NCBI RefSeq assembly: GCF_014201375.1
Contig: NZ_JACHDZ010000007.1
Location: forward strand, 1-64,000
Origin: Tunturiibacter empetritectus
Lineage (GTDB): Bacteria > Acidobacteriota > Terriglobia > Terriglobales > Acidobacteriaceae
Reading direction: 5' to 3'
Length of the DNA stretch: 64,000 nucleotides
The notes beneath the pieces were generated by a model. It saw nothing but the letters and a program-made list of their open reading frames with translations. It was not told the DNA's origin and ran no database searches. Below, one piece after another: positions 4,503 to 21,435 of this stretch. Position 1 is the first letter of the stretch. Each line of letters begins with the position of its first letter. Position numbers and translations under genes: made by a program.

Positions 4503-5115
4503 GAAAGACGCCCGGGATATTTACCGAGAATCCTTTGAGATCATCAGGGCGGAATCGGACCTATCTTCGTTCTCACCAGTACTCGCACGCGTGGTGGTGC
4601 GGATGATTCACGCATGTGGGATGACAGATCTGGCGCAATATGTCTCTGCATCATCTACAGCTACTGAAGTCGGCGAGCAGGCGCTTCTAGCCGGGATGCC
4701 CTTACTTTGCGATGCAAATATGGTGGCAAATGGGATCACCCGATCCCGACTTCCGAAGGACAACGAAGTGATCTGTACGCTGAGTGATCCACGCACCGCA
4801 GAACTAGCGAGAAGATTTGAGACGACGCGCAGCGCAGCGGCGCTGGAGCTCTGGCGCGATAGACTCGGCGGTTCGATTGTTGTGATCGGAAACGCACCGA
4901 CGGCTTTGTTTCACCTGCTCGAGATGCTCGAAGCAGGCGCAGCGGCTCCCGCACTCATCATCGGCATTCCTGTTGGTTTCGTTGGCGCGGCGGAGTCAAA
5001 AGCAGCCCTTGAGACTAACCACCTGAATCTTCCTTATTTGACGGTTCGAGGGCGCCGCGGTGGAAGCGCCATCGCCGCGGCTGCCGTCAACGCTATGGCA
5101 AGTGAGGAAGAATGA
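4492..5115 (+). CDS. cobH: Precorrin-8X methylmutase CobH
   Basis: The 207-residue protein begins MTYKKDARDIYRESFEIIRA and carries the conserved VVRMIHACGMTDL with the catalytic histidine at residue 40. It also has the CbiC/CobH landmarks CDANMVANGI, VIGNAPTALFHLLE and GIPVGFVGAAESK. It moves the methyl group from C11 to C12, turning precorrin-8X into hydrogenobyrinate. The start at 4492 overlaps the end of cobG, which implies translational coupling; a longer in-frame reading from 4396 lies wholly inside cobG and is unlikely. The stop overlaps the next gene by four bases. Confidence 0.9.
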   Translation: MTYKKDARDIYRESFEIIRAESDLSSFSPVLARVVVRMIHACGMTDLAQYVSASSTATEVGEQALLAGMPLLCDANMVANGITRSRLPKDNEVICTLSDPRTAELARRFETTRSAAALELWRDRLGGSIVVIGNAPTALFHLLEMLEAGAAAPALIIGIPVGFVGAAESKAALETNHLNLPYLTVRGRRGGSAIAAAAVNAMASEEE

Positions 5116-6623
5116 TTAAAAGCACAATGCCAGGAAAACTATTCGGCGTTGGACTAGGACCTGGCGATCCTGAGCTTATTACTCTCAAGGCTCTGCGTAT
5201 TATCAGGCAGGCTCACGTTGTTGTTTATCCGACAGCCAAGCACGGCCAGAGTAACGCACGTTGCATTGTGAGCGCGGAGTTGACACACGAACAGATCGAG
5301 ATGCCGATGATTTATCCAATCACGACAGAATCGACCGATCATCCTGGCGGTTATGAGGCGATCATTGCTCAGTCCTATGATCAGATGGCTGAGCAAATTG
5401 CGGCTCATCTGCTGGAAGGTCGTGACGTTGCGGTTCTATGTGAGGGTGATCCCTTTTTTTATGGGTCGTTTATGTACCTTCACGACAGGCTGGCTCACCG
5501 CTTTTCCACCTCGGTGATTCCAGGAATTCCATCTGTGATGGCCGCTGCAGCAAGGCTCGGCACTCCGCTCGTCAGAAGGGATTCAGAACTAACTATACTC
5601 CCTGCAACTTTGTCGGAAGATGTCTTGACAGCTCGGCTAAATCCTCGTGATGCATTTGCGATCATAAAACTTGGCCGCAACTTCACGAAGGTGAAAAACG
5701 CATTGTCTCGAGCCCAGGTTTTGAGTAAGGCTCTCTACATCGAACGTGCGACGATGAGCCAGGAGCGGATCGTTCCACTAAGCGAAGTAGATTCGCCAAG
5801 CGTTCCTTATTTTTCGCTCATACTTGTTCCTGATTCGAGGCAGAGCCAACACAGTGATATCGTCAATAGCCCAGGACAGATAGCAGTTGTCGGACTAGGA
5901 CCAGGCTCCGCTGAGTGGATTACGCCGGAGGCCCAGCAAGCACTTGCTAAGGCGACCGATCTGGTTGGATACCAGCGATATCTGGATCGAGTTCCACTTC
6001 GATCCGGTCAGCGTCGTTTCGGATCTGACAACAAGGTAGAGGCAGAGCGCGCACGTCATGCGCTCTCTCTCGCGGAGTCTGGCAGGCGCGTATGTGTCGT
6101 TTCGTCGGGAGACCCAGGTATTTTTGCAATGGCCTCCGCAGTGTTGGAGTCGGTGGATCAGGGGCCAGAAACATGGCGTTCTCTCGATATCCGCATTATT
6201 CCTGGGGTTTCGGCAATGCAAGCAGTAGCAGCCAGATTGGGTGCTCCTCTCGGTCACGATTTTTGCGTTATTTCGCTGTCGGATCGTCTAAAGCCCTGGG
6301 AGGTCATCGTGAAGCGGTTGCACGCTGTTGCTTCCGCTGACTTCGCCATCGCGATTTATAACCCCATCTCTTCTGAGCGGAAGTGGCAGTTGGCAGAAGC
6401 ACAGGCAATTCTCGCAAGCTATAGGACGCCCGAAACACCGGTAGTACTAGCCCGCGCTGTCGGCAGATCAGACGAGAAAATTGTGATCACAGATCTTGCG
6501 CGATTCGATCCTTCATTGGCCGACATGCAGACGCTCATTCTTGTCGGTTCTTCGACAACTCGCAGTCTCGCTTTGTCGAATCATCGGGAGATGATCTACA
6601 CTCCTCGAACCTATGGGGTTTGA
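5112..6623 (+). CDS. cobIJ: Fused CobI-CobJ methyltransferase (precorrin-2 C20 / precorrin-3B C17)
   Basis: This 503-residue protein joins two SAM-dependent tetrapyrrole methylases. Residues 1 to about 250 are CobI (KLFGVGLGPGDPELITLKAL; VAVLCEGDPFFYGSFMYL), which methylates precorrin-2 at C20. From about residue 254 CobJ begins (QIAVVGLGPGSAEWITPEA; VCVVSSGDPGIFAMASAVLE), which contracts the ring and methylates C17. Both domains keep the Gly-rich GxGPG motif and the SGDP/EGDP loop, so both look active. Fused cobIJ genes are known in actinobacteria such as Mycobacterium. The ATG overlaps the cobH stop, and cobL starts three bases after the cobIJ stop codon. Confidence 0.92.
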   Translation: MIKSTMPGKLFGVGLGPGDPELITLKALRIIRQAHVVVYPTAKHGQSNARCIVSAELTHEQIEMPMIYPITTESTDHPGGYEAIIAQSYDQMAEQIAAHLLEGRDVAVLCEGDPFFYGSFMYLHDRLAHRFSTSVIPGIPSVMAAAARLGTPLVRRDSELTILPATLSEDVLTARLNPRDAFAIIKLGRNFTKVKNALSRAQVLSKALYIERATMSQERIVPLSEVDSPSVPYFSLILVPDSRQSQHSDIVNSPGQIAVVGLGPGSAEWITPEAQQALAKATDLVGYQRYLDRVPLRSGQRRFGSDNKVEAERARHALSLAESGRRVCVVSSGDPGIFAMASAVLESVDQGPETWRSLDIRIIPGVSAMQAVAARLGAPLGHDFCVISLSDRLKPWEVIVKRLHAVASADFAIAIYNPISSERKWQLAEAQAILASYRTPETPVVLARAVGRSDEKIVITDLARFDPSLADMQTLILVGSSTTRSLALSNHREMIYTPRTYGV

Positions 6624-6625
6624 CT

Positions 6626-7876
6626 ATGCGACCTACTCAAACTGAAATAGCGAGATCGGATTTCAACGAGCGTTGGTTGTCGATCATCGGCATTGGCGAA
6701 GATGGCTGGGATGGCCTTAGTCTAGCAGCGAAGCAAGCTGTAGAGTCTGCGGAGTTTCTTTATGGTGGCGTTCGCCATCTCGCCTATGTTCCAGCGGTTA
6801 GTGCTGCCCAGATAGCGTGGCCATCTCCCATGGCCCCAGCGGTGCACGAGATTCTGACACACCATCGAGGTCGGAGTAGGGTTTCTGTTTTAGCCAGCGG
6901 CGATCCGATGCTCTTTGGCGTTGGTGTGACGCTCACTCGCGAGTTGGCCCCCACCGAGTTTCTTGTTGTACCGCAGGTCTCTGCTTTTTCCCTGGCGTGT
7001 GCCCGCCTCGGCTGGGGAGTTTCTGAGACCGTCCTGGTATCACTGGTCAATCGCCCGATCGAGCAAATGCACAGATACCTTCATCCAGGCCAGCGGCTGG
7101 TACTTTTCTCTGAAGACGGCACAACGCCTGCGGCAGTTGCGCAATTTCTAACCGACAGCGGGTATGGATCGAGTCAATTCACGGTCTTTGAATATCTGGG
7201 TGGCTCTGCGGAGAGACGCCGGGACGACCGGGCAAATATTTGGTCAGTACAACAATGTGGTGATTTGAATCTGATTGCGGTCGTATGCATTGCTGATTCT
7301 GAAACGAGACGGTTGCCGATTGTTCCAGGACTCTCCGACGATTTCTATCTAACAGACGGACAACTGACAAAACGTGAAGTCCGCGCCGCAACGCTAGCGC
7401 GTTTAGCACCGTTGCCGGGCGAACATTTATGGGATGTAGGAGCGGGTACGGGAACGGTAGGTATCGAATGGATGCGCTCTCATCCTTTATGCTCGTGCAT
7501 TGCCTTTGAAGAACGCGAAGATAGGGCCGCTAGAATTTTAGCCAACGCGAAGAGACTTGGTGTGCCAACCCTAAAGGTAATCAAGGGGAGTGTGCCGTCT
7601 ACTCTCAACGGATTGCAGCCGCCAGACGCGATTTTTATCGGAGGGGGAATCGGCAGGGACGGCCTGTTCCAGGCCTGCTGGGACAGACTCCCCAATGGCG
7701 GTCGGATCGTTGCGAACGCGGTTCGCATCGAAAGCGAGATAGCGGTAGCAACCTGGCAGAGGTTGTACGGCGGCGAGCTTGTGCGAATCCTCGTAGCTAG
7801 AGCAGAACCCGTCGGTGGCGTCCTCGGATGGCGTCATTTGATGCCAATTACTCAATGGTCGGCGGTGAAGTCATGA
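6626..7876 (+). CDS. cobL: Precorrin-6Y C5,15-methyltransferase (decarboxylating) CobL
   Basis: A 416-residue CbiE-CbiT fusion. The N-terminal half is a tetrapyrrole methylase (WLSIIGIGEDGWDGLSLAAK; VLASGDPMLFGVGVTL), and the C-terminal half from about residue 235 is a CbiT domain (DGQLTKREVRAATLARLAPL, DVGAGTGTVGIEWMRS, AIFIGGG). It methylates C5 and C15 of precorrin-6B and removes the acetate carboxyl at C12. I choose ATG 6626, with GGGG eight bases upstream, over TTG 6620, which overlaps the cobIJ stop. The stop overlaps the ATG of the next gene (ATGA). Confidence 0.9.
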   Translation: MRPTQTEIARSDFNERWLSIIGIGEDGWDGLSLAAKQAVESAEFLYGGVRHLAYVPAVSAAQIAWPSPMAPAVHEILTHHRGRSRVSVLASGDPMLFGVGVTLTRELAPTEFLVVPQVSAFSLACARLGWGVSETVLVSLVNRPIEQMHRYLHPGQRLVLFSEDGTTPAAVAQFLTDSGYGSSQFTVFEYLGGSAERRRDDRANIWSVQQCGDLNLIAVVCIADSETRRLPIVPGLSDDFYLTDGQLTKREVRAATLARLAPLPGEHLWDVGAGTGTVGIEWMRSHPLCSCIAFEEREDRAARILANAKRLGVPTLKVIKGSVPSTLNGLQPPDAIFIGGGIGRDGLFQACWDRLPNGGRIVANAVRIESEIAVATWQRLYGGELVRILVARAEPVGGVLGWRHLMPITQWSAVKS

Positions 7877-8238
7877 GCATCTCTTGTTCGATCGGGATTG
7901 GCTGCTCCTCTCGTGCGACATCTTCGGATGTTATTCAGCTTATTCAACAGTGCGTAAGCGAAATTACTCCCGGAGGCATCCTCGCAACGTTGGACCGTTG
8001 CTCAAATATCGGAGAAGCAGTCGCGACTACGCTCAAACTGCGGCTTGTACTGTTTCCGGCGAGTGTTCTTGCGCAGGTTCGCGGAATTAAAAGTCAGTCG
8101 TTGCTGGCTGCATCGAGGGTCGGGACAGCGAACGTCGCAGAAGCATCGGCGTTGGCTTCTCTGGGACCAGCAGCCAGTCTGATTTTGCCGCGCCAGACGG
8201 GACGTTTCTGCACGTGTGCTGTGGCGGTGCTGCGATGA
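7873..8238 (+). CDS. cobE: CobE/CbiG C-terminal-domain protein
   Basis: A 121-residue protein starting [20 protein letters not shown], the typical opening of the CobE/CbiG C-terminal domain (a Gly-Cys-rich beta strand then helix). It also has [20 protein letters not shown] and the closing TCAVAVLR. CobE is required for aerobic cobalamin synthesis and may help product release or lactone handling; its exact reaction is not settled. The length matches stand-alone CobE (about 120-150 residues). ATG 7873 overlaps the cobL stop and the stop overlaps cobM, so it is embedded in the operon. A start at 7828 inside cobL is unlikely. Confidence 0.82.
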
Positions 8239-9023
8239 CAGTTCATTTCATTGGAGCCGGACCTGGCGCTCCCGACTTGCTCACGCTGCGGGGAAGAGAT
8301 CTGATTAGCCGCTCCCCCGTGTGCCTGTATGCAGGCTCATTAGTGCCTAAAGAAGTTATCGCACATGCTCCGGCGGGAGCTCGTATCGTTGACTCAGCAC
8401 AGATGAATCTTGATGAGATCATCGCAGAGATCTCCTCCGCTCATGAGAAGGGACTCGACGTCGCTCGAATTCACTCAGGGGATCTTTCAATCTGGAGCAC
8501 GATGGCGGAACAGATCCGTCGTCTCACTCCCCTCGAAATCCCTTACGACGTAACCCCCGGTGTCCCATCATTCGCCGCCGCTGCCGCTACACTCAATCAA
8601 GAACTAACCCTTCCTGAGGTAGCCCAAACTTTGATTCTGACAAGGACCTCAACTCGGTCTACGGCAATGCCAAACGGTGAAGATCTCACAACGCTGGGGC
8701 GATCGGGCGCGACAATGGCCATTCATCTCTCAATCACGAACCTTGATATGGTGACGTCGCAGCTATTGCCACTCTATGGCCCAGACTGCCCAGTAGTCAT
8801 CGTGTTTCGTGCGAGTTGGCCAGACGAAATGATTCTGCGTGGGACACTATCTAATATCCAAAAGATTGTTGCCAAGTCAGGGGTAGATAACAATGCGCTG
8901 ATTTTGGTCGGAAGATCTCTTAGTCGACCCGATTTTGGTGAAAGCTATCTCTACTCTGTTTCCAGAGAGCGCGAGTCGGAGACTCAGGATAGTGTCAGAC
9001 CTGTATCCGCCGACGCAGATTGA
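8235..9023 (+). CDS. cobM: Precorrin-4 C11-methyltransferase CobM
   Basis: The 262-residue protein begins [20 protein letters not shown] and has [13 protein letters not shown]-type (here [13 protein letters not shown]), [17 protein letters not shown] and [20 protein letters not shown], all hallmarks of CobM/CbiF. It adds a methyl at C11 of precorrin-4 to give precorrin-5. I use ATG 8235, which overlaps the cobE stop; the GTG-type frame opening at 8214 would add seven unlikely residues. Four bases separate it from the cobK GTG. Confidence 0.92.
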
Positions 9024-9026
9024 TCA

Positions 9027-9884
9027 GTGCAATTCAAAGATAGGATGTGTAACTTGGCGGACCTCAATCCAACATCGGATGCGATAGAAAGTACGCCCGA
9101 TGGATCTCAAAATTTCTCGCCACGGATACTGATTCTTGGTGGGACTGGAGAGGGAACGAAGCTTGCTTCGCGTCTTGCACATAGATCGGGCCTATATACC
9201 ATCTCTTCACTGGCTGGGCGCGTTAGCGAGCCCACACGTCCCGAAGGAGTCGTCAGAGTTGGAGGATTTGGTGGCGTTGAGGGGCTCGCCTCTTTCCTCG
9301 TGAAAGAGAACATCGGGATGGTCGTTGATGCTACTCATCCTTTTGCTGTCCGGATCAGCCGTAACGCAGAGCTTGCGTGCGCCAGGTTAGGATTGCCACT
9401 AATCGCTTTCATCCGGCCACCCTGGATCAAGTCAAAAGCGGATCTTTGGCACGAAGTCCTAAATTTTGAGGAAGCAGCCAGTGTTGTTGACGTTCAGAAA
9501 GGACGAGCATTCCTGTCTATTGGCCGGCAAGAAGTAAGTTCGTTCGCGGCTTGTCACGAGACCTGGTTTCTGATTCGCGCGATCGAAGAACCGACACGGC
9601 GACTTCCACGTTTTCATGAAATTCTATTACGTCGCGGGCCTTTTAGTCTTGACGAAGAATTACGGTTACTAGAGGATCACTCAATCGATTACGTCATCTC
9701 CAAAAATAGTGGTGGGTCGGCGACATATACCAAAATTCAAGCTGCACGACTACTCGAAATACCAGTAGTCATGGTGAAGCGGCCTGTCAAACATACCGTT
9801 CCAACTGTTGAAACACTTGAAAAAGTACTCGTGGAAGTTGATCGCTTAATTCAGTCTAATCGAACAACACAACGACGCTTATGA
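9027..9884 (+). CDS. cobK: Precorrin-6A reductase CobK
   Basis: An NADPH-dependent reductase that converts precorrin-6A to precorrin-6B. After a ~30-residue leader the Rossmann-like core starts (ILILGGTGEGTKLASRLA), followed by SLAGRVSEPTRPEGVVRVGG, GFGGVEGLASFLVKENI and VVDATHPFAVRISRNA. The Lys-Asn-Ser-Gly-Gly stretch ISKNSGGSATYTKI near residue 230 is the usual CobK/CbiJ signature. The start is uncertain: GTG 9027 gives 285 residues, ATG 9045 removes six. It follows cobM by three bases and belongs to the same transcript. Confidence 0.9.
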   Translation: MQFKDRMCNLADLNPTSDAIESTPDGSQNFSPRILILGGTGEGTKLASRLAHRSGLYTISSLAGRVSEPTRPEGVVRVGGFGGVEGLASFLVKENIGMVVDATHPFAVRISRNAELACARLGLPLIAFIRPPWIKSKADLWHEVLNFEEAASVVDVQKGRAFLSIGRQEVSSFAACHETWFLIRAIEEPTRRLPRFHEILLRRGPFSLDEELRLLEDHSIDYVISKNSGGSATYTKIQAARLLEIPVVMVKRPVKHTVPTVETLEKVLVEVDRLIQSNRTTQRRL

Positions 9885-9954
9885 GATTGCGCATGGGGTA
9901 TCGATGTCTGGAATGTCGGCCACGCGTGTCGACCATTAAAAAGGGAATGTCAAT

Positions 9955-10725
9955 ATGAGGAAGCTATACATCATTGGAATCGGTCCGGGTAATCCAGAAC
10001 AAGTTACGATTCAAGCGATTAAGGCTATAAATCAGGTTGATGTGTTCTTTGTTACGAGCAAAGGAGAGGCGAAGAACGATCTCACTCAGTTTCGAAAAGA
10101 GATATGTGAACGATACATCGACGAGCCATCCTACAGAACTGTCGAGATCGTCGATTCGGGGCGCGATCCGACGATAGATTCTTACGCTTCTCGAGTCGAG
10201 GCGTGGCACCAGCAGCGGGCGCTAACCTACGAAGAACTGATCATTAATGAGTTGCAAGAGAATGAGTGTGGTGCATTTCTTATCTGGGGAGATCCGTCAC
10301 TCTATGACAGCACTCTTAGAGTGATTGATCAGATTATTAGCCGTGGTCAAATTCATTTTGACTACGAAGTCATCCCTGGAATTACAAGCATTCAAGCCCT
10401 CGCAGCGCGCCACAAGATAACTTTGAATGGTATAGGGGAGTCAATTTGTATCACAACGGGTCGTCAACTATCGGCTGCCCTAATCTCCAACACCGAGAAC
10501 GTTATTGTGATGCTCGACGGAAAGTGTTCCTTCAAAGAGGTGCTAGACAAAGAGGTGGAGATCTATTGGGGAGCATACGTCGGTAGTGATAAAGAGGTTC
10601 TCTTGTCTGGAAGACTTACCGAAACAAGGGAGAGCATCGAGATGGCTCGAAGCGCGGCTAGAGAGAAAAACGGTTGGGTGATGGACACCTATCTACTTCG
10701 GAATCCATCTGCACGCCGGCCTTGA
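9955..10725 (+). CDS. cobF: Precorrin-6A synthase (deacetylating) CobF
   Basis: The 256-residue protein opens with MRKLYIIGIGPGNPEQVTIQ, continues with AINQVDVFFVTSKGEAKNDL and LIWGDPSLYDSTLRVIDQI, and has YEVIPGITSIQALAARHKIT. These match CobF, the SAM-dependent enzyme that methylates C1 of precorrin-5 and releases the C2-unit as acetate. CobF occurs only in the aerobic route. A good ribosome binding site (AAGGGA) lies about ten bases before ATG 9955. It stands 70 bases after cobK and its base composition is the most AT-rich seen (25 G/C in the first 60-base row), unlike the right half of the window. Confidence 0.9.
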   Translation: MRKLYIIGIGPGNPEQVTIQAIKAINQVDVFFVTSKGEAKNDLTQFRKEICERYIDEPSYRTVEIVDSGRDPTIDSYASRVEAWHQQRALTYEELIINELQENECGAFLIWGDPSLYDSTLRVIDQIISRGQIHFDYEVIPGITSIQALAARHKITLNGIGESICITTGRQLSAALISNTENVIVMLDGKCSFKEVLDKEVEIYWGAYVGSDKEVLLSGRLTETRESIEMARSAAREKNGWVMDTYLLRNPSARRP

Positions 10726-10912: not shown

Positions 10913-12264
10913 TCAATCCCCTGCCACTGCCATCTCGTATTGCTCTCGTGGTTGGCTGCGAAGCGTTTGCTCGAACACAGCCAATTGCATTTCGATATTG
11001 CTTTCGATGTGGCGGCGTTTGAGGATGTCTTCACGATAGCGCCGCAGGAAGTAGTCGATTGTTTCGACACGAATGCGGATAGAGCCAATGGGCTTGTTTT
11101 CGTCGAGATCCTTGAATGAGAAATAGGGCGTACCAGATTGCTCGATGATGCCTTCGATGACCCCGTAGATGGGAGCATCGTGACCACACTTGAAGCTGGA
11201 AACCTCGAGCGCAACCAAGTTGGGGGGCGCACGGTAAACTTTGCGGCCCAGACTTTGTGGTTGGCTGGAGTAACGATTCTTCCAGACGTCACTGATGTCG
11301 AGCGGATGGGTAATCAACCAGACCTTTACCACCGGCGGTTGCTTTTTCCTCAGCACGACCATAGTCAATGTAGTAAAGAAGCTTTTCTGTGCCGAGATAG
11401 TTTCCCACCCCAAGCTCTTCCTCTTTCTCAAATTCGACCGATCCCAGCGCTGCAAAGTACTGCGCATTGTCGGGTACTTTGATCAACTCTTCCGGAGTCG
11501 CGCCCTCCGGAATCTCGACCTTCCGTTCTTTCCACATGCGGGGGATGTTGGCCTGCCAGGCCTCCCGCATGCCGCGGATGAACCCATTGGGCCCGCCCAG
11601 GAGAAGAACGTGCGGCCGCAGTGTATGTCCGCGAGTGAGCACGCTGAGGTTTTGCAACACGATTGCCTCGAAGAGCGAGGCCATCAACTCATCCGAGGGG
11701 GTACCGGTCTTCTGCAAACCGTTAATGTCCGTTTCTGCGAAGACACCACACTTACCGGCAACCTTGTGCAGCTTGATACCGTGATATCCCTGAATCGCAA
11801 GCTCTGCCGCGGGGATCTTGAGCTTGGCATTGATCTTGTCGATCACCGCTTCGGTGCCACCGGCGCACTTGTCGTTCATGGAGGGAATCTTCTTCTTGCG
11901 CCCCGTCTCCTCGTCATCTTTGAAGACGATGATCTTTGCATCCTGTCCACCTAATTCGATGACGGAGTACACCTCAGGATGGAGCTTCTCGACGGCGAGG
12001 GACAGCATGCACTTCCTGAACAAACTTGGCGCCGATCATCTCGGCGATAGTTCCGCCACCTGATCCTGTGACAAATATGCGTGTATTTCCAGCGGCGATT
12101 CCAGCGTCGGCTTCCATCCGTCGTAAGAACTCGAGGACCTTTTCCGGCTGGCGTGTCTCATGACGTTGATAGTCCTGCCAGATAGTCTTGTCGGTGGCAG
12201 CATCAACCACAATTGCTTTGACGGTAGTGGAACCTATGTCCAGGCCAACTAAAAATTGATGCAT
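10913..12264 (-). pseudogene. BadF/HgdC-type acyl-CoA dehydratase activase, two frameshifts
   Basis: From ATG 12264 the protein begins with the ATPase phosphate-1 motif (FLVGLDIGSTTVKAIVVDAA) and FVTGSGGGTIAEMIGAKFVQ, then breaks near 12,005. It resumes in a second frame (LAVEKLHPEVYSVIELGGQD, NDKCAGGTEAVIDKINAK, KCGVFAETDINGLQKTGTP), which includes the two cysteines that bind the 4Fe-4S cluster. It shifts again near 11,300 into a frame encoding SSFKCGHDAPIYGVIEGIIE and IRVETIDYFLRRYRE. The activase of 2-hydroxyacyl-CoA dehydratases injects an electron into its partner with ATP hydrolysis. The C-terminal piece resembles the end of the large dehydratase-type proteins, so a deletion may have fused parts. 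Clearly homologous, clearly broken as written. Confidence 0.75.
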
Positions 12265-12282
12265 CGCCTTCTCCTCAAAGGA

Positions 12283-12492
12283 CTAATCCTGAATGCCGGT
12301 AAGAAAAGCTGGACGCTTGATTCGTTCTCTTCGGCCAACGCCAGCATAAGGTTCACTCTCCGGTGTGGACTTTTCGCTCTGAAACTTGATCAAATGCAGC
12401 AGGGAGGGTCGCAGCATCACGACGAACAGCGCCGTGAGGGCCGTTCCTAAGGTGATACACGCTACCAGAAGCAGCCCCGACAAGACGCGCAT
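12283..12492 (-). CDS. Small single-pass membrane protein in the dehydratase cluster
   Basis: A 69-residue protein with one strongly hydrophobic segment right after the start (VLSGLLLVACITLGTALTAL, continuing FVVML) and a basic, proline-containing tail ending KRPAFLTGIQD. The start codon lies at the end of the upstream dehydratase-like gene and the stop lies 18 bases before the activase, so it sits inside the gene cluster and is unbroken. I do not recognise its family. It could anchor the complex to the membrane; that is inference. Confidence 0.5.
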   Translation of the reverse strand: MRVLSGLLLVACITLGTALTALFVVMLRPSLLHLIKFQSEKSTPESEPYAGVGRRERIKRPAFLTGIQD

Positions 12493-14272
12493 CAGGCAAC
12501 CCGCTGTATACCTGGCGTGGAGACACGACTCCGGCGGTGATAGGCACTATCTTTATTCATCAAATCACTCACATGCCAGGCGAACTGCGCAGCGGTCCCA
12601 GCGATACCCTTCCGATGTGGGACCCGGTAAAGTGCCTGCTTCAGCTTCGGGTGCTGCTCGACGTAATCGTGCAGCTCATCTAAAGATTTGCCAGTCTCTT
12701 GCAAGACTCCGTCAAACTCGGCGCGCGCTTTAGCCTTTGCTTCTGCGAGTGCCATCTGGACCCGGCTGTGCGCATTGACTTCGCCTTCGCCCGAGGTCTC
12801 AATGGGTAGGAAGATCATGTCTTTGAACTTGTTGACGACTCGAGATTGAACACCACCCGATTGCGTCGAGGGCATACAGCCGAAGGGCTTCAGAGCCAGG
12901 ACCATGTGGCACAGATGATTCACGGTGTAGTAGACATTCTTGCCGACCTCCATATAACCCTCTCCGCCACGGGCGAGCTGATGGTAGAAGGGATGGGCCA
13001 GCCGCGAGAGCTCCTTCTGGGGAATCAAGTGATGAGCTGTATCTCTCATGTGTTTGATGGTGCGGTGATAAAAATACGTCCACATAGCACCTCCGGCGCT
13101 GAGCCCTCCGGTCTTTTTGAAGATCTTTAGTTCGTTCGCAAGACGCTCCTTCACCTCGTACCACTTGGGATCACGATAGGGAGCTTCCGCGTCCGCTCGC
13201 GCTTTGGCGACGAACATCATGTAGGCTATCCATGTAGCGATCGGTTCGACTAGCACCTGTGCACCTTCCTTTTCGAGGAAGGCGAACATATTGAAGTTGC
13301 CGTCGCCCTCGGTTGTCTGGGCCCAGAACTCACCAGTGATTTTGATAACGGGTTTTACACGCAAGCGGTCAATTTCGATCGTGTTGATGCTGTCGCGGCA
13401 GGAGTGCAGCGCGTCCACGTACTCTTTGCCGTAGAGGTTGTCACCGATCTTCCCGCGAGTGCAGCCAATTCCCGTGAGTTTCTTATTCTTATCGAGGAAC
13501 GGTTTTGCCCAGGAAGGAGCAGCGTCCATGATTTGTGCCAGCGCTTCCGGTCGCGCAGCGTATCGGTGAGTGTCTTCACTGATTCCCGGATGACGCGGTC
13601 GGTCTCGCCTTTGTTCATTTCAAAAGGGCGAACTTGGTACACAAGCTCATTGATGACATCTCCAAGATTGAGCGCATTGAGCATGCCCATGCCAAAGTCA
13701 ACAGAGAACTTCAATCCCGGCTCGCCACTTGCGGCCTTGATGCCGTCGGTTTGCTGGAATAGCAGAACACGGAAGCCATCGAAGCCAGCATTCTGCAAGG
13801 CGAAGCGGTATTCAGCTTCGTACATCCCGAAACGGCACGGACCACACGAACCGGCGGTGAAGAAGACATAGTTGTCGATGATCTGCTGCTTGGTCTGGCC
13901 CTGTTGCTCCAGCATCTGGAGGTAACGCACGAGATTGCCGACCGTGAAATACGTCGGGTTGCACTGACCGTTGTTTCCGAACTCCTTTCCGGCCTGGAAG
14001 TCATCCACGACCGGCGTCGGAATATTCTCGCAATGATAGCCGCTAACGTGAAAGACGGCCTTGATCATCTCTTCGCGCTTCCAGGTGAGACCGCCGAAGA
14101 GAATCGTTACGTAGTCTTGTTCTGCGGCAGTGAATGTGCGCTCTACTGGCTTTTTGAACTCGCGCATACGCGCCAATCCGGCTTCCGCACGAAGACGCGC
14201 CCGCTCAGCATCGATACGAGCCTGGATCTCTACTTCAAAGTCTTTTTGAACGATCTCTTCAGTTACCGGCAT
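12492..14272 (-). pseudogene. 2-hydroxyacyl-CoA dehydratase-like (HgdB/DUF2229-related) protein, one frameshift
   Basis: ATG 14272, with GGAG just upstream, starts MPVTEEIVQKDFEVEIQARI. Family-like stretches include FGGLTWKREEMIKAVFHVSG, GNNGQCNPTYFTVGNLVRYL, FTAGSCGPCRFGMYEAEYRF and, after a shift at 13,532-13,534, KNKKLTGIGCTRGKIGDNLY and TGEFWAQTTEGDGNFNMFAF. The conserved cysteines fit an Fe-S-binding dehydratase component. Restoring one A in an AAA run (minus strand) rejoins the frames into about 590 residues. The partner activase lies downstream and a radical SAM gene upstream. The substrate is unknown. Confidence 0.7.
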
Positions 14273-14321
14273 TTGCGTCTCCTTGTGCTCGATTGCGTGC
14301 GAGTTTCGATCGGTTCCGCTA

Positions 14322-15620
14322 TCAGGGATAGTCCGGCATAACATCTGCCCGTTCGCTCCCTGGAAGCCATGAGCGAGTTGCTTGAAGAAATACTTGATGA
14401 CACGCTGGTCGTTGTAGCACCAGCCGACGATATGGATTAAGCGTAGAAAAGCAGTGGGTCTGGCAGGACTCTTTCTGGCGATCCAATTGTTTGGTATCGA
14501 ACTTGTGATCGCCGACTACGCCCCAGTCATAGTTCGCCGTATACATCGGAAAGCAGGGCGCGAGCGTTCCATCGACACGGATGATCATGGAGTTCTGACC
14601 GGCACGGCAGTTCCAGGGGAAGTGGTTGCCTTTCATGAAGTCGACCATCTGCCATAACCGAGTGTTTGAGTTCACCATTTTGTATCCGGCATTCTGCTTT
14701 TCAGTCAGCCACTGAATCGTCTCCTCCACGGCCGGCCAGTCATCCTTCGTGATGTAGGTGACGTTGTGGTCCGCATGCTTGAAGTGCTCGTCCTGCTCAA
14801 GCAACGGAGACTCGTTGATGTGGTAGTCAGTTGCGATGCCGTTGTCGTGGGCGATCTCGGTAAGCTCTCGGACATCGTCCAAATTATTGCGGCAGATATT
14901 GATGTTGAGGAAGACCGACAAGCCATATCCGTATTGCTTGCGGATGAGGTAGTCAAATTGCTTGCCGATGGGGACCAGAGCCTTAGGCAAGCCCGGTTTC
15001 ACATCGACGGCATCCACGGCGATATTGAAGGTGGAGATACCGCATCAGCCAGCTTGTCGATTACGTCGGTGCGCAATAGCCGTTCGTCGGGAGGTAGATC
15101 CAAAAGTTCTTCTTTGCGGCATAGTAGGTGATTCGATGAATAGGGTCGGGGCGCAGCAGCGGCTCTCCGCCCATGTAGGCGAGCACACGACAGCCTGTGC
15201 CATGGAGCCAATCAATGGAGCGCTTAGCCGTATCCTCAGTCATTCCCCTGACTTTGTTGTCAAAGGCCCAGCAGTAGTGGCAGTCGAGATTACATTTGAA
15301 CTCAGTAAAGAGATAAGAGATGAGCGGATGGAAGTCGCCTGCCGTAACCAACGGATGTAGGGGAATAGCCATCCTTGCATCGCGTGATAGATCTGCCCTG
15401 GTCTCCAGTTGCGTTTTTCGGGCGGAGCCCAACTACCTGCCTCATCGATTGGGCCGAGCAGCTCGGGATGCTGCGGAAATACGGGATCAGGAAATTTCTG
15501 CGGCTTCCCACTGGACGACAACCCAGGCGAGATCGCTGTTGATTTCGTAAGTAGATCATGTAGCGGGACGTCAAGCCGAAAACCAGGCATTTGTTCCGCT
15601 TGCTGCTGCTCCTGATGCAT
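14322..15620 (-). pseudogene. Radical SAM/SPASM-like protein, multiple frameshifts
   Basis: A ribosome binding site (GGAGGA) precedes ATG 15620. The coherent protein is spread over several frames. PGFRLDVPLHDLLTKSTAIS and NWRPGQIYHAM come first. After a shift near 15,385 follows FHPLISYLFTEFKCNLDCHY, with the radical SAM CxxxCxxC (CNLDCHYC), and CRVLAYMGGEPLLRPDP. After two shifts near 15,075 and 15,045 follow FDYLIRKQYGYGLSVFLNIN and NCRAGQNSMIIRVDGTLAPC, a SPASM-like cysteine region. A last shift near 14,430 leads to VGWCYNDQRVIKYFFKQLAH. At least four indels make a sequencing artefact alone unlikely. It heads a cluster with the dehydratase and activase remnants. Confidence 0.7.
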
Positions 15621-15759
15621 CGGTCCTCCTTCTCAAGACCAATGGAAAAAGACCCTCAACCTGCGAGTCTCAAATGCTACTACCGGTCTTTTCATTTCAG
15701 CCATTGCAACTTGCGCGAGAGAGCCACGCGACGCCTTCTCCAAGAAAGAAATAGACCTT

Positions 15760-17373
15760 TTGTCTTTAGTTGCCGATTACGTTGCGTTGGCAATCGACGA
15801 CTGCCTGAACTTTGCTCATTCAGAATCAGTGCGAGTTCAACTGGAGAGCGAACGGAGGAAGTTGCAGCTCATCCTTGACCTGAACAACAGCATTGTCTCC
15901 AATCTTGAGTTACGAGATGTTCTGCGGTCCGTCTCTCCCAGCATTCGCAAGACCATGCGGTTGGACGGAGTGGCTCTGATTCTGCCCGATGCCGCGAACC
16001 AACAACTTCAACTTTATGCGCTTGACTTTCCAGACGGTAAGGGCATCTTGCATCAAGATATGTCAAGATCTCTCGACGGTTCGCTAGCCGGCCAGGTCTT
16101 TCGCACCGGAAAGCCATGGGTGGGAAATATTGAGGATCTGAGCGGATCAGGTTTTGGCAACTGGGTTATCTCCGGAGAAGGCGTCAAAACGCTCTGCATG
16201 CTCCCGCTAACCCGGTGCAACTCCACTCTTGGGGTGCTCTGTCTGGTAAGACTGGAGAAGAACGCATTCACTTCACCAGATATCGAATTTCTGTCTCAAA
16301 TCGCCGGACAGGTGGCGATCGCTATCGACAATGCATTTGCGTATCTCCGGATTACGGAGCTCTCAGATCAGCTCAAACAGGAAAATCTCTATCTTGAAGA
16401 TGAGATCCGCAGCGAGCTCAATTTTGAGGAGATCGTTGGGAACAGCACAGCACTCCGCCAGGTGCTGCGTCAGGTGGAAGTAGTCGCGCCGACAAACTCA
16501 ACCGTTCTGATACTAAGAGAGACTGGCAGCGGAAAGGAACTGATTGCACGCGCCGTTCATAACCTCAGTCGGCGTCGGAACCATCCCTTCGTCAAACTGA
16601 ACTGCGCGGCAATTCCCACCGGTTTGTTGGAAAGCGAGCTATTTGGGCACGAGAAAGGGGCGTTCACCGGAGCAATCGCGCAATGGATTGGGCGTTTCGA
16701 GTTGGCATCTCAAGGGACTATCTTTCTAGACGAAATCAGCGAGATTCCGGTTGACCTGCAACCCAAGCTTCTGCGCGTTTTACAGGAACGAGAGTTTGAA
16801 CGCTTGGGCAGTTCGCGTACGCTTCGCACCGATGCCCGCCTCATTGCGGCCACCAACCGGGAGTTGAGCGCGATGGTGGAGGAGGAGCAAAAGTTTCGCT
16901 CTGATCTGTTTTACCGGCTGAACGTCTTCCCCGTCTATGTCCCGCCTCTTAGGGAGCGGAAAGAGGACATCCCATTCCTGGTCAGTCATTTTGCCCAGTA
17001 CTTCGCTCGCAACATGACGAAGGACATCGACACGATCTCCGCCGAGACTATGAATGCGCTGGCCAACTACCCATGGCCGGGAAACGTTCGTGAATTGCAG
17101 AATGTGATTGAACGGGCGGTGATCCTCTCGAAAGGCCCGATGCTGAAGATATCCTTAACTGACTTGAGATCAAAATCTTCCGATCCGAACAGTCACATAA
17201 ATGGAATTGCGACTCTAGAGGAGATCGAAAGAAGGCACATTCTGTCAGTCCTTGAGCAGAGCAACTGGGTCTTCGCGGGCCCAAACGGAGCAGCTGCGAA
17301 GCTTGGAATGAAGCGTCCAACGCTGCAGTTTCGGATGCAAAAGCTCGGCATCTCCCGCCCACAGAAATCCTAG
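15760..17373 (+). CDS. Sigma54-dependent transcriptional activator with GAF domain(s)
   Basis: The 537-residue reading has the tail of one GAF domain, a complete second GAF (about residues 40-200), and an AAA+ domain with a Walker A of RETGSGKE, the sigma54-contact loop GAFTGA and the [19 protein letters not shown] motif. It ends in a Fis-type helix-turn-helix ([20 protein letters not shown]). Such activators open sigma54 promoters in response to small-molecule or redox signals. The frame is open upstream to 15,616 and encodes more GAF-like residues ([20 protein letters not shown]), but no ATG is found, so the N-terminus may be truncated; TTG 15760 is only a possible start. It is divergent from the radical SAM cluster and may control it. 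Confidence 0.8.
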
Positions 17374-17705: not shown

Positions 17706-18002
17706 ATGCTGCGAATCACTGTGACCGAGAGTACATCCGAGCAACGGTGGATTCTTCAAGGCCGGTTGACAGGATCAACCATCGAAGAGTTGATCACTAG
17801 TTGGCGCGCAAATCCACGGTGTCAGCCATCTCGGAGCTGTGTTGTAGATCTCAACGAGATCACGTCCATCGACAAGGATGGCGAGCAGGTTCTTCTGATG
17901 ATGCTCCGGGATGGAGCAAAGTTTGTGGCGACTGGACTGTATACGAAGCATCTCTTAGAATCGCTTTCGGTTCAGGACGCACCGGGGGGAGATTCATTTT
18001 GA
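17706..18002 (+). CDS. STAS-like (anti-anti-sigma type) small protein
   Basis: A 98-residue protein: an N-terminal beta strand pair (MLRITVTESTSEQRWILQGR LTGS split by a turn), a helix (EELITSWRANP) and the central strand CVVDLNEITSIDKDGEQVLL. Strand-D-L-x-x-I-T-x-I-D is the typical STAS/SpoIIAA-like core. In classical members a Ser follows the core Asp and is phosphorylated; here the equivalent region reads SIDKDGEQ, so a switch by serine phosphorylation is doubtful. AAGGA precedes the ATG at a good distance. It may relay a signal to the neighbouring regulator, but that is inference. Confidence 0.6.
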   Translation: MLRITVTESTSEQRWILQGRLTGSTIEELITSWRANPRCQPSRSCVVDLNEITSIDKDGEQVLLMMLRDGAKFVATGLYTKHLLESLSVQDAPGGDSF

Positions 18003-18216: not shown

Positions 18217-21200
18217 TTACTGAAAATCGTGGGATCGCAGCTCCAATCCGTTGCCGCACAATTCCCGCAGGCGAACAGCCTTTACGTGGACCACGTTGTC
18301 CTGATTTTGAAGCAACCCCTCAGTCAGCAAGAATTTGCTGCGGGTGACTAGCAGACGATCCCGGTCGTAGAGATCCGGTGTGACGATGACATTGGCTATG
18401 CCAGTCTCATCTTCCATCGAAATAAAGATGAACCCTTTCGCCGTGCCGGGGCGCTGCCGAGCGATGACACAACCAGCGGTTCTTACGAACTCTCCGTCTT
18501 TGCACTTCCGCAACTCCTCCGCAGTTAGGACCCCCTGCCGTCGTAATTCGGTACGCCGACGATACATTGGGTGCCTGTCTACTGTGAGACCTGTTCCGGC
18601 ATAGTCGGCGATCAGGCGCTCTCCGATCTCCATTTGTCGGAGCGGCAATGGCTCAGCATTATCTTTCAGCCAGTCGCTCTGCTGCCTGAGTAGAGGCCCC
18701 TCTAGCTTGCCGGCACGTTCCACCTGCCAGAGAGCATCCCGGCGATGGGCAATCCCATCGATCTTATTTAACGCACCGATTCGGGCCAAGAGCGTGAGTT
18801 CCTTTCTGTCGAGCGACCCGACACGCAGGGCAAGATCCTCTGCCGATCGGAAGGGACCATCCTGGACACGTGATTTTACGAGTGCTTCTGCCGACAGCTT
18901 TCGCAGGCGTTTGGCATAACCCAGTCCCAATCGCAGAGACAAGGTTCCGTTTGATTCGTATTCAATAGTGCAAGGCCAATCCGAAATCTGAACATCGATC
19001 GGTTTCACACGCAGGCCGTGACGTTGCGCATCCTTCACGAGCACAGCAGATGAATAAAACCCCATCGGCTGATTGTTGAGGATGGCACAGGTAAAGGCCG
19101 CAAGATACTTCACCTTGAAATACGCCGACGCATAAGCAATGAGCGCGAAGCTTGCCGCGTGCGACTCTGGAAAACCGTACAGGGCAAAAGAGCTGATGTT
19201 CTGGACGATCTTGTCCTGGGTAGCGGTGTCTATACCATTGACGGTCATACCTGCGCGGAGCTTGCCTTCCAGATTTTTCATGCGCTCCCACGAGCGGCGC
19301 ATTCCCACCGCGCGTCGCAGCTCTTCCGCTTCTGCGCCGGTGAAGTTGGCAACCGTCATCGCCATACGGAGCAGCTGTTCCTGAAAGAGTGGAACACCTA
19401 GAGTCCGCTTCAGCACTAGTTCCAAGGAAGGATGCGGATAAGTAACTTTTTCCTTCTTCTGCCGCCTCCGTATATAGGGGTGCATCATCTTGCCGACGAT
19501 CGGCCCAGGTCGGATGATGGCAACTTGCACGACGAGATCGTAAAACTTCGTGGGATTGTTTCGCGGTAGCGATGCCATCTGAGCGCGAGACTCCACCTGG
19601 AACATCCCCACCGTGTCTGCATTTTGCAGTGACCGATAGACCTCTTCGTCTTCCGGCAACTGCGCCAAATCGATCTTCTCGCCATAGTATTGCGGGATCA
19701 GCTCTACGCAGTCCTTCAGGACCGCCATCATACCGAGACCGAGAAGGTCCACTTTAACGATGTGCAGGTCGGCACAGTCTTCCTTATCCCATTGGACGAC
19801 AGTGCGGCCCGGCATCGAGGCGCGCTCCAACGGAACCACACAGTTCAACTGCCCTTGGCAGATGACCATACCTCCCGAGTGTTGACCCAGATGTCGAGGC
19901 AGGTCTTGAATACGCATAGAAAGTTCGAGATATTTGGCGGTACGCGGATGTTTCAGGTCGAAGCCGGCATTGTGAAAGGAATGCGCCATCGTATCGGTTT
20001 TGCCTCGCCACTCCCAATTGCTGACTAGGCTCGACAGGCGCCCCAGTGATTCTTCATCGAATCCGAGAGCTTTGCCAACCTCTCGGGCAGCCGATTTGCC
20101 GCGATAGGTGATGACGTTCGCGGTCATTGCGGCTCCGAGCTCACCGTACCGCTGGTAGATGTACTGGATGGCTTGTTCTCGCTTGTCTTCGGACGGTAGA
20201 TCGAGATCAATGTCCGGCCACTCTCCCCGGCTCTCACTCAGAAACCGCTCGAAAAGAAGTTCCATACCGACAGGATCGATAGCTGTGATTTCGAGCGCAT
20301 AGCAGACGGCGGAGTTGGCCGCACTCCCACGGCCCTGAATCAGGATGTTATTGCCCTTGCAAAACCGAACGATGTCCCAAACGATGAGGAAGTAGCCGGC
20401 GAAGCCGAGCTTTGCGATCAGCGTTAGTTCATGCTCGACCTGTTTTTTCGCTCTCTCCATCAGGTCACTGTCGTTCTTCGGGCCATAGCGTCGCGCCACA
20501 CCCTCCGTCACTCGCTTCCTCAAGAAACTGTCCATCGTCTCGCCATCCGGCGCCGGATAGCAAGGGAACTTATAGCCAAGATCGTTCAACTCAAATCTGA
20601 GGCGAGAGGAGAGTTCCGCTGTGTTTTCGATACTGCCGGACACGTCCCGAAACATTACCGCCATCTCATGTGCTGGCCGGATGTGACGTTGATTGTTCAG
20701 CGTGAGCAAACGCCCAGCGTGATCGAGGTCTGTATGGTGGCGCACTACGGTAAAGAGGTCCAGAATCTCACGGTCATATGCAGTAGCATGGCGGACCCCG
20801 TTCGTCGCTAGCACAGGCAGGTGCAGGGAGCGGGCAATCCGAATCGCGGCCTGATTTCGCCACTCCTCCTCGCGTTCGCAATGACGTTGTAGTTCGACAT
20901 AAACGTTCTTCGGACCGAAGATGCGAACCAATTGTTCCACAGTCTGTAGACCTGCTTCCTCGCCACCGCTTACCAACGCCGAAGCAAGAGGGCCTTCATC
21001 TCCGCCCGTCAAACAGATGAGGCCTGATGCGTACTGCTGAAGATCCTCGAAGTTCGCTGCTCCTTCTTCTTTCGTCTTTTCGCGCATCTTAAACTGCGTG
21101 ATGAGCTGGCAGAGGTTTTGATATCCCTCGCGCGATTCACAAAGAAGAGGCAACCGTGCAGGTTCCTGGGGGTGCTGGTGTGGAAGCCATTCAGGAGGCG

Positions 21201-21435
21201 TGAGCCGCAAGCCGAAGCTCGATACGCCAACCTCGGCTCCAATATGTGCCTGAATCTTGTTCCTCTTCGCGCTGGTGTGAAAACGAGCGGAACCGTAGAC
21301 GCCATTGTGGTCGAGCAAGGCCATCGCTGGCATTTCGAGCGTAACCGCCCGTTCGACAAGTTGTTCTGGCTGCGATGCTCCCTGAAGGAAGCTGAATGCA
21401 CTAGTAGCGTGCAACTCTACATAACGCTCAGTCAT
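18217..21435 (-). CDS. dnaE2: Error-prone DNA polymerase DnaE2 (ImuC)
   Basis: The 1072-residue protein starts with the PHP domain (YVELHATSAFSFLQGASQPE; MALLDHNGVYGSARFH). The C-family polymerase core follows (IQGRGSAANSAVCYALEIT; WPDIDLDLPSEDKREQAIQY; HIVKVDLLGLGMMAVLKDCV), then a helix-hairpin-helix region and an OB fold (FVRTAGCVIARQRPGTAKGF). It is the translesion polymerase of the SOS mutasome and depends on ImuB for clamp access. I choose ATG 21435, which overlaps the imuB stop by eight bases; the longer reading from 21,513 adds residues encoded inside imuB. Length is normal for DnaE2. Confidence 0.93.
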   Translation of the reverse strand: MTERYVELHATSAFSFLQGASQPEQLVERAVTLEMPAMALLDHNGVYGSARFHTSAKRNKIQAHIGAEVGVSSFGLRLTPPEWLPHQHPQEPARLPLLCESREGYQNLCQLITQFKMREKTKEEGAANFEDLQQYASGLICLTGGDEGPLASALVSGGEEAGLQTVEQLVRIFGPKNVYVELQRHCEREEEWRNQAAIRIARSLHLPVLATNGVRHATAYDREILDLFTVVRHHTDLDHAGRLLTLNNQRHIRPAHEMAVMFRDVSGSIENTAELSSRLRFELNDLGYKFPCYPAPDGETMDSFLRKRVTEGVARRYGPKNDSDLMERAKKQVEHELTLIAKLGFAGYFLIVWDIVRFCKGNNILIQGRGSAANSAVCYALEITAIDPVGMELLFERFLSESRGEWPDIDLDLPSEDKREQAIQYIYQRYGELGAAMTANVITYRGKSAAREVGKALGFDEESLGRLSSLVSNWEWRGKTDTMAHSFHNAGFDLKHPRTAKYLELSMRIQDLPRHLGQHSGGMVICQGQLNCVVPLERASMPGRTVVQWDKEDCADLHIVKVDLLGLGMMAVLKDCVELIPQYYGEKIDLAQLPEDEEVYRSLQNADTVGMFQVESRAQMASLPRNNPTKFYDLVVQVAIIRPGPIVGKMMHPYIRRRQKKEKVTYPHPSLELVLKRTLGVPLFQEQLLRMAMTVANFTGAEAEELRRAVGMRRSWERMKNLEGKLRAGMTVNGIDTATQDKIVQNISSFALYGFPESHAASFALIAYASAYFKVKYLAAFTCAILNNQPMGFYSSAVLVKDAQRHGLRVKPIDVQISDWPCTIEYESNGTLSLRLGLGYAKRLRKLSAEALVKSRVQDGPFRSAEDLALRVGSLDRKELTLLARIGALNKIDGIAHRRDALWQVERAGKLEGPLLRQQSDWLKDNAEPLPLRQMEIGERLIADYAGTGLTVDRHPMYRRRTELRRQGVLTAEELRKCKDGEFVRTAGCVIARQRPGTAKGFIFISMEDETGIANVIVTPDLYDRDRLLVTRSKFLLTEGLLQNQDNVVHVKAVRLRELCGNGLELRSHDFQ

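Follow-up and report, generated by a model that had tools for sequence, protein, structure and literature searches.

A decayed gene cluster of Tunturiibacter empetritectus points to a probable acidobacterial variant of the PlsA/PlsR-type lipid reductases with a radical SAM partner

The window analyzed here, a 64,000-nucleotide stretch of Tunturiibacter empetritectus (Acidobacteriota; NZ_JACHDZ010000007.1, positions 1 to 64,000), carries on its minus strand, at 10913-15620, the remnants of three enzyme genes and a small membrane open reading frame (ORF), opposite a sigma54 activator. This is a pseudogene cluster, and almost certainly a broken member of a PlsA/PlsR-like branch of the benzoyl-CoA reductase/2-hydroxyacyl-CoA dehydratase (BCR/HAD) superfamily. 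In related genomes, intact copies of the operon probably encode an oxygen-sensitive reductase of PlsA/PlsR/Ger type, which would make ether lipids out of glycerol ester lipids, and with it a companion radical S-adenosylmethionine (SAM) enzyme. The original prediction, made from the letters of the window, could put no pathway name to these families; the reductase pair does match a named class, that of the PlsA/PlsR/Ger lipid ester-to-ether reductases, from whose members it stands apart as a divergent clade of its own. On the strength of the homology to PlsR and PlsA, the two-activase layout reported for Ger, and 14 shared cysteines, the pathway left without a name there is most likely the acidobacterial version of this anaerobic chemistry.

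The whole operon can be seen in relatives of the window genome, which belongs to the same genus as the genomes G014, G002, and G035 of our set (we call these same-genus relatives the Edaphobacter group). All five same-genus loci examined carry a radical SAM gene, a gene for a 595- to 597-residue protein, and a gene for a 1222- to 1282-residue protein (longest ORFs) in one direction and with open frames, and because five genomes of the genus carry the three genes open and in the same order, the set is not a chance assembly. The conserved neighborhood of ATP-driven radical enzymes expected from the window is thus borne out, and the families, for which the original prediction had allowed that no other genome might hold them together, do occur together elsewhere. 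In locus L026, the long protein (1237 residues, here ACT) consists of two PF01869 activase domains followed by PF09989 (DUF2229) on one chain, and its nearest solved relatives by sequence are the activators of 2-hydroxyisocaproyl-CoA and 2-hydroxyglutaryl-CoA dehydratases (E about 5e-23). The 595-residue protein has no Pfam or NCBIfam match at E≤0.001, in the window pieces or in the intact copies scanned, and searching its family against the PDB by sequence gave three matches at E≤1, none of them BCR/HAD. Its earlier label as 2-hydroxyacyl-CoA-dehydratase-like is nevertheless backed by its predicted fold. The model (mean predicted local distance difference test score, pLDDT, 79.3) aligns best to DCCP (7yyl; Z 9.6, root-mean-square deviation (rmsd) 4.8, 279 residues aligned), followed by 3-methylbenzoyl-CoA reductase (9gai; Z 8.9, rmsd 5.1, 292 aligned) and HadBC (HadB, 3o3n; Z 8.4, rmsd 4.4, 274 aligned); the first rows of unrelated folds reach a similar Z (8.3) but align only about 110 residues, and Foldseek alone also ranked DCCP first (E 3.8e-3). 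The model supports a BCR/HAD-fold reductase, which would give the operon both hallmarks of the superfamily, the reductase fold and the ATP-dependent activase. The likeness to DCCP, benzoyl-CoA reductase, and 2-hydroxyacyl-CoA dehydratase lies in this predicted fold and in the type of activase; by sequence, the 595-residue protein has no match to them in the PDB or in Pfam/NCBIfam at the cut-offs given above, and a CoA substrate is not indicated.

Sequence comparison ties both proteins to PlsA and PlsR. The PlsA/PlsR-type references were taken from plasmid records of Haliovirga, Listeria, Collinsella, Fusobacterium, Acetoanaerobium, and Subdoligranulum. BLASTP comparison with the first four of these gave 30.6-33.8% identity for the front part of ACT (E 3.7e-80 to 5.5e-105) and 26-28% for the DUF2229 part, and the 595-residue protein matched the Red2/PlsR part of the same four at about 20% identity (E 2e-11 to 2e-19). 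Fourteen cysteines, 11 in ACT and 3 in the reductase, are conserved in all six references and in 3/3 short acidobacterial paralogues, and are laid out as two pairs, one per activase domain (spacing 39), a separate set of four, and two triads, one per reductase half; they would be the ligands of iron-sulfur clusters. PlsA/PlsR of Clostridium perfringens and relatives, like the acidobacterial pair, place two activase domains and DUF2229 on one chain beside a second reductase, with homology over most of the length. In C. perfringens, plsA and plsR are two separate adjoining genes (PMC8788747, PMC12838417), as in Fusobacterium, where the two halves are neighboring genes for 975 and 404 residues. 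The acidobacterial operon differs from these in having the reductase gene first, in the length of its proteins (595 vs 404 residues for the Fusobacterium reductase, 1237 vs 975 for ACT), in forming a separate clade, and in the radical SAM partner found at many loci and the sigma54-type promoter of one subclade. Tested Ger enzymes carry two PF01869 domains, a layout termed BB and tied to saturated alkyl ethers, and PlsA and Ger are generally not yet separable by sequence (PMC13274423). ACT has the BB layout of Ger as known from Thermotoga and Desulfatibacillum; unlike Ger, the acidobacterial system is split into two proteins, as judged from the published layout of Ger.

In a tree of 32 rows, the ACT proteins of the operon (14 rows) form one group at 100/100 support, and this group joins the six PlsA-type references at 100/100, beside them and not inside. 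On the other side of the tree stand nine rows of a shorter acidobacterial PlsA/PlsR type, together with Paraclostridium and two unusual acidobacterial proteins. The shorter type is encoded by a two-gene operon (about 1040 and 430 residues) of other Acidobacteriota, some of whose genomes also carry the long system, and forms a clade of its own (L147:5816-10436, L148:748-5285, L190, L191, L192, L193, L196, and L197). The DUF2229 proteins at L194:2935-6873 and L195:2727-6947 (1312 and 1406 residues), which sit on very long branches, are perhaps a third type. Among 14 control genomes, DUF2229 was found in four: Thermus composti, Deinobacterium chartae, Thermotoga maritima, and Lactococcus lactis. 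Ether lipids of T. maritima and a plasmalogen synthase of Lactococcus cremoris are on record in the literature.

In the mechanism proposed here, the two activase domains of one ACT chain would pair up as an intramolecular dimer around a single [4Fe-4S] cluster, held by Cys 134/173 and 476/515 (L026 numbering). ATP hydrolysis at this paired activase would send low-potential electrons through the shared cluster to [4Fe-4S] clusters in both reductase halves, bound by Cys 905/952/1147 in the DUF2229 half and Cys 104/146/469 in the separate 595-residue half. With these clusters, the ester carbonyl could then be reduced by way of a ketyl radical; water loss would leave a vinyl ether, which on further reduction would become an alkyl ether, and the radical SAM protein would probably carry out a further step on the same lipid.

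In the window itself, every feature named in the original prediction is present at the coordinates that it gave, with the enzyme set on the minus strand, and the damage that it had noticed is larger than it could see: all three enzyme genes align to intact homologues (L023, L025, and L026) in broken frames. Read along the minus strand from 15620 to 10916, the order is radical SAM gene, dehydratase-like gene, 69-residue hydrophobic ORF, and activase fragment. The radical SAM pseudogene (14342-15620) falls into pieces in different frames in tblastn with the L026, L025, and L023 proteins; its best fragment matches PF04055 in Pfam (E 8.5e-10), its C-terminus is twitch/SPASM-like, and its intact counterparts have 428-446 residues. 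The PlsR- or 'Red2'-like reductase pseudogene (12495-14272) lies in two frames with 85-93% identity to intact copies. The 69-residue ORF (12283-12492) starts near the stop of the reductase gene, has one hydrophobic, transmembrane-like stretch, and is 44.9% identical to a 75-residue ORF at the same position in L023. What had been taken for a free activase of the BadF/HgdC type is the stump of a PlsA/Ger-like fusion of two activases and DUF2229: the remnant (10916-12264) comprises the first activase domain at 12264-11316 and then the C-terminal end at 11329-10916, so that by tblastn residues 1-317 and 1098-1237 of 1237 are kept and about 780 internal residues are gone. An identity as free HgdC-type activase was accordingly rejected, the fragment being the front of the 1237-residue fusion. 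PF01869 matches two fragments of the window gene (E 8.1e-10 and 2.4e-4, the second under the curated cut-off), the second activase domain and DUF2229 are lost, and DUF2229 has no match anywhere in the whole window genome. Several small frame breaks close together are what a sequencing or assembly error in an intact operon could produce, but this is very unlikely to account for the loss of some 780 residues of the fusion with no DUF2229 match in the genome, for the open frames on either side (cob genes at 5112-10725 and a 1098-residue ORF at 18217-21513), or for another decayed copy at the same cobF-flanked place in the sister genome G031; because the neighboring ORFs are open, the damage is not a general problem of sequence quality.

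Edaphobacter-like genomes differ in the state of the operon: some hold it intact, others have a broken copy, and most give no match. Of 61 genomes (the window's own, 36 same-genus, and 24 others), 19 contain the dehydratase-like fragment, and five of these are among the 36 of the same genus. When 41 genomes of the genus were searched with DNA, 10 matched: the window genome, six others at length, the G031 remnant, and two over fewer than 50 bases. In genome G033 (locus L027), the frames of the operon are open. Stops fall inside some of the matches elsewhere; among them, in one of the six at-length genomes, the radical SAM match at G063:C6:51697-52995 spans an in-frame stop, and this copy may also be decaying. 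The G031 remnant (L146:5132-8238), which holds only the last 744 residues of the long protein, adjoins the same cobF flank, and is a second decayed copy, lies beside an ORF that by eye resembles a recombinase. Class-wide, the family of the 595-residue protein was matched in 66 of 249 genomes (at least 90% completeness, E≤1e-30). A scan of genome contigs confirmed 435 relatives, and the best 80 of these 435 are all acidobacterial by title. In a set of 80 named acidobacterial loci, the reductase is present in all 80, the long protein in 74, and a radical SAM gene (called at 35% identity or more, with several loci ending at contig ends) in 43; no radical SAM gene lies in the available flank, short in some cases, of the other 37.

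The radical SAM label given from the window holds, through PF04055 and through a CX3CX2C motif followed by auxiliary-type C-terminal cysteines. The motif and five further cysteines are conserved in at least 10 of 11 relatives, with Cys 110/114/117 and 340/358/388/392 invariant in 11/11. The structure model is weak (mean pLDDT 60.8), and the fold search made with it supports no more than a radical SAM protein that has an auxiliary-cluster region. Tes (7tom) is among the fold matches of this model, at rank 32 (Z 11.9, rmsd 4.6, 227 aligned), and Tes/GDGT-MAS and Mss are likewise radical SAM enzymes of lipid context. Identity with Tes/Mss was rejected: the protein scores 35.1 bits to NF045702 against a cut-off of 450, and a separate Tes/Mss-like gene exists in 55 of 61 genomes (best E≤1.3e-54), seven of them passing the model cut-off, with weaker radical SAM matches only in four of the rest and none in two. 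That of the window genome (G000 C4:28455-30014) reaches 324 bits to NF045702, under the cut-off.

The link between the radical SAM gene and the reductase is recurrent without being obligatory. The position of the gene varies among the loci that have it: upstream of the reductase genes, between them (seven loci), or downstream, there also on the opposite strand. With cut-offs of 1e-30 and 1e-40 in the same 249 genomes, both families occur in 43, the reductase only in 23, the radical SAM protein only in 22, and neither in 161 (Fisher p 7.6e-16, not corrected for kinship), and in 18 of the 43 genomes with both, the two genes lie within 15 kb. A tree of 35 selected radical SAM proteins (16 linked, 19 not) implies at least three changes of linkage. 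Among 20 loci where the gene stands away from the reductase (12 in genomes without a reductase, 8 with it elsewhere; some neighbors scanned), a fatty-acid hydroxylase directly follows it at L168:8026-10115, and at L176:4998-8964, clustering shows in a row a member of that hydroxylase family, an SDR-family protein, a protein without assignment, and the radical SAM gene. At L167:7951-14035, the gene accompanies a VTT-domain protein and an AMP-binding/carrier/acyltransferase protein, and clustering finds the same neighbor families at L169 and L170. Most of the 20 loci showed no lipid-type neighbor among those scanned. These neighborhoods are suggestive of a tie between the radical SAM protein and lipids.

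Transcription of the operon probably depends on sigma54 in some of the Edaphobacter group, driven by a divergent GAF-domain activator. The activator is limited in spread: a match is found at 7 of the 80 loci, divergent from and adjoining the operon at 6 of these. A TGGC-N8-TGC element of the -24/-12 type stands 83-121 bases before the radical SAM start (aligned to the L026 start) at 6/6 distinct loci with a divergent activator. Among six loci without an adjacent activator, one has a like site (L048, where a more distant relative of the activator lies about 5 kb away), one a weaker site (L045), and four none, and the window copy has no such site at the corresponding place. Taken singly, the sites are not all strong: between 0 and 30% of shuffled sequences scored as high (L023 0, L024 1, L041 1.3, L043 1.7, L025 4, L026 10, and L042 30%). 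Upstream of the element, 5/6 loci (L025, L026, L041, L042, and L043) have an ATCAR-N4-TTA sequence, counted with no control run, which we take to resemble the binding site of integration host factor (IHF); an IHF site upstream is the arrangement of classical sigma54 promoters. Use of this promoter, and a regulatory signal reaching it through the activator, would fit this arrangement. The small membrane protein, which the original prediction counted as part of the cluster, is present in the window and is largely restricted to the Edaphobacter-like group: a hydrophobic small ORF stands at the same place in 8/12 Edaphobacter-like loci and in 1/55 others with the normal arrangement, a count from which seven differently arranged loci and six lacking the long gene were excluded.

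Several points weigh against an ester-to-ether reductase working with a radical SAM step. PlsA and PlsR are only remote homologues (about 30% and 20% identity), and the reference sequences are homologues by annotation, none of them a tested PlsA or Ger. The ACT stem is long (2.79 changes per column), and the tree program warns of long branches meeting. DUF2229 also occurs in T. composti and D. chartae, for which we had no ether-lipid information at hand, and the shorter PlsA/PlsR operon could be the true ether maker of some Acidobacteriota. Homologues may also behave differently, because one Ger gave mono- and diethers in Escherichia coli and its close paralogue Ger2 gave no ethers (PMC11150832). 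At L027, where the frames are open, both an adjacent sigma54 activator and the promoter site are missing. Finally, since 23/66 genomes with the reductase lack a radical SAM match and 22/65 show the converse, the radical SAM step is not obligatory.

Some of these points would suit a BCR/HAD-family reductase paralogue that has abandoned ether-lipid formation and acts on another acyl substrate (CoA thioesters, esters derived from fatty acids, and other lipids being candidates), with the radical SAM enzyme finishing the product. The long stem and the coexistence of the short operon could be read this way, as could the cysteines that mark the clade (Cys 604 of ACT, in 6/6 clade members and 0/6 references, and Cys 143 of the reductase, in 6/6 and 1/6) and a reductase half about 190 residues longer than the 404-residue PlsR-type protein of Fusobacterium. 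We consider such a change of substrate unlikely, given that all 14 reference-shared cysteines are kept, that the PlsA-type references are nearer in the tree than the acidobacterial short type, that solo relatives of the radical SAM protein adjoin lipid genes in some loci, and that the sporadic occurrence of the operon in the genus fits sporadic ether lipids. A separate question, compatible with ester-to-ether reduction, is whether the reductase pair makes the ethers alone, the radical SAM protein being a loosely tied lipid- or cofactor-modifying enzyme with its own role that has repeatedly come to lie beside the operon. The genomes that hold one family without the other and the repeated changes of linkage speak for this, the strong association (before any correction for kinship), the linkage in several gene orders, and the co-directional operon of the five same-genus loci against it, and we give it a substantial chance, somewhat short of even.

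Around the remnants, the divergent sigma54 activator (GAF, AAA+, and Fis-type HTH domains by Pfam; 15700-17373 on the plus strand, ORF 15760-17373) is 77-81% identical to its relatives by tblastn and about 140 N-terminal residues short against L025 and L026. Beside it lies a small STAS-like protein (17706-18002, plus strand; 73.9% identity to L026:4493-4798), with a weak STAS_2 match under the cut-off. On the other side, cobF (precorrin-6A synthase; 9955-10725, plus strand; TIGR02434, 348 bits) is a flank outside the system: membership in a cobalamin operon was rejected, as the cob genes are on the opposite strand and no cob gene is among the L026 flanking genes scanned, which cover part of the flank. 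A plasmid origin was likewise set aside, the window reductase fragment having no plasmid match.

The system bears on the origin of acidobacterial ether lipids. How Acidobacteria form branched glycerol dialkyl glycerol tetraethers (brGDGTs) is unclear, with elb or agps genes only in some subdivision 4 genomes (PMC11868695). Edaphobacter aggregans makes small amounts of iso-diabolic ether and brGDGT, production of which oxygen limitation can raise (PMC13274423), and a Tes homologue has been recorded in it (PMC8941075). Because a Tes/Mss-like gene is present in 55/61 genomes, it may be the ester-to-ether step, and not chain coupling, that varies among close relatives. No account of this operon appears in the sections of PMC13274423, PMC11150832, PMC11868695, and PMC8941075 compared here, a comparison that leaves the original descriptions of Mss/Ger and of C. 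perfringens plsA-plsR outside; an earlier mention of acidobacterial Ger homologues is likely, because the introduction of PMC13274423 is worded as if Mss and Ger genes occur in Acidobacteria too. New against this literature are the recurrent radical SAM linkage (43/80 loci) and, for some of the Edaphobacter group, the sigma54-type promoter beside the divergent activator (6/6 loci). We offer as a bold and, taken whole, rather improbable proposal that the missing ether-bond-forming system of brGDGT-type lipids in subdivisions 1 and 3 is this long, split reductase of the PlsA/PlsR class, joined in many lineages by a dedicated radical SAM step foreign to PlsA/Ger (full saturation, the sn-2 position, or modification of the alkyl chain being candidates), with sigma54 regulation in some Edaphobacter and with repeated losses of the system. 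If so, these losses would account for the patchy occurrence of ether lipids in close relatives that still have the Tes/Mss-like chain-coupling enzyme, and ester-reductase chemistry would be extended by a linked radical SAM enzyme. Lipids of the brGDGT type are widely used as thermometers of soils and lakes. The state of the operon in each genome, whether intact, broken, or absent, gives a direct handle on whether it predicts ether lipids.

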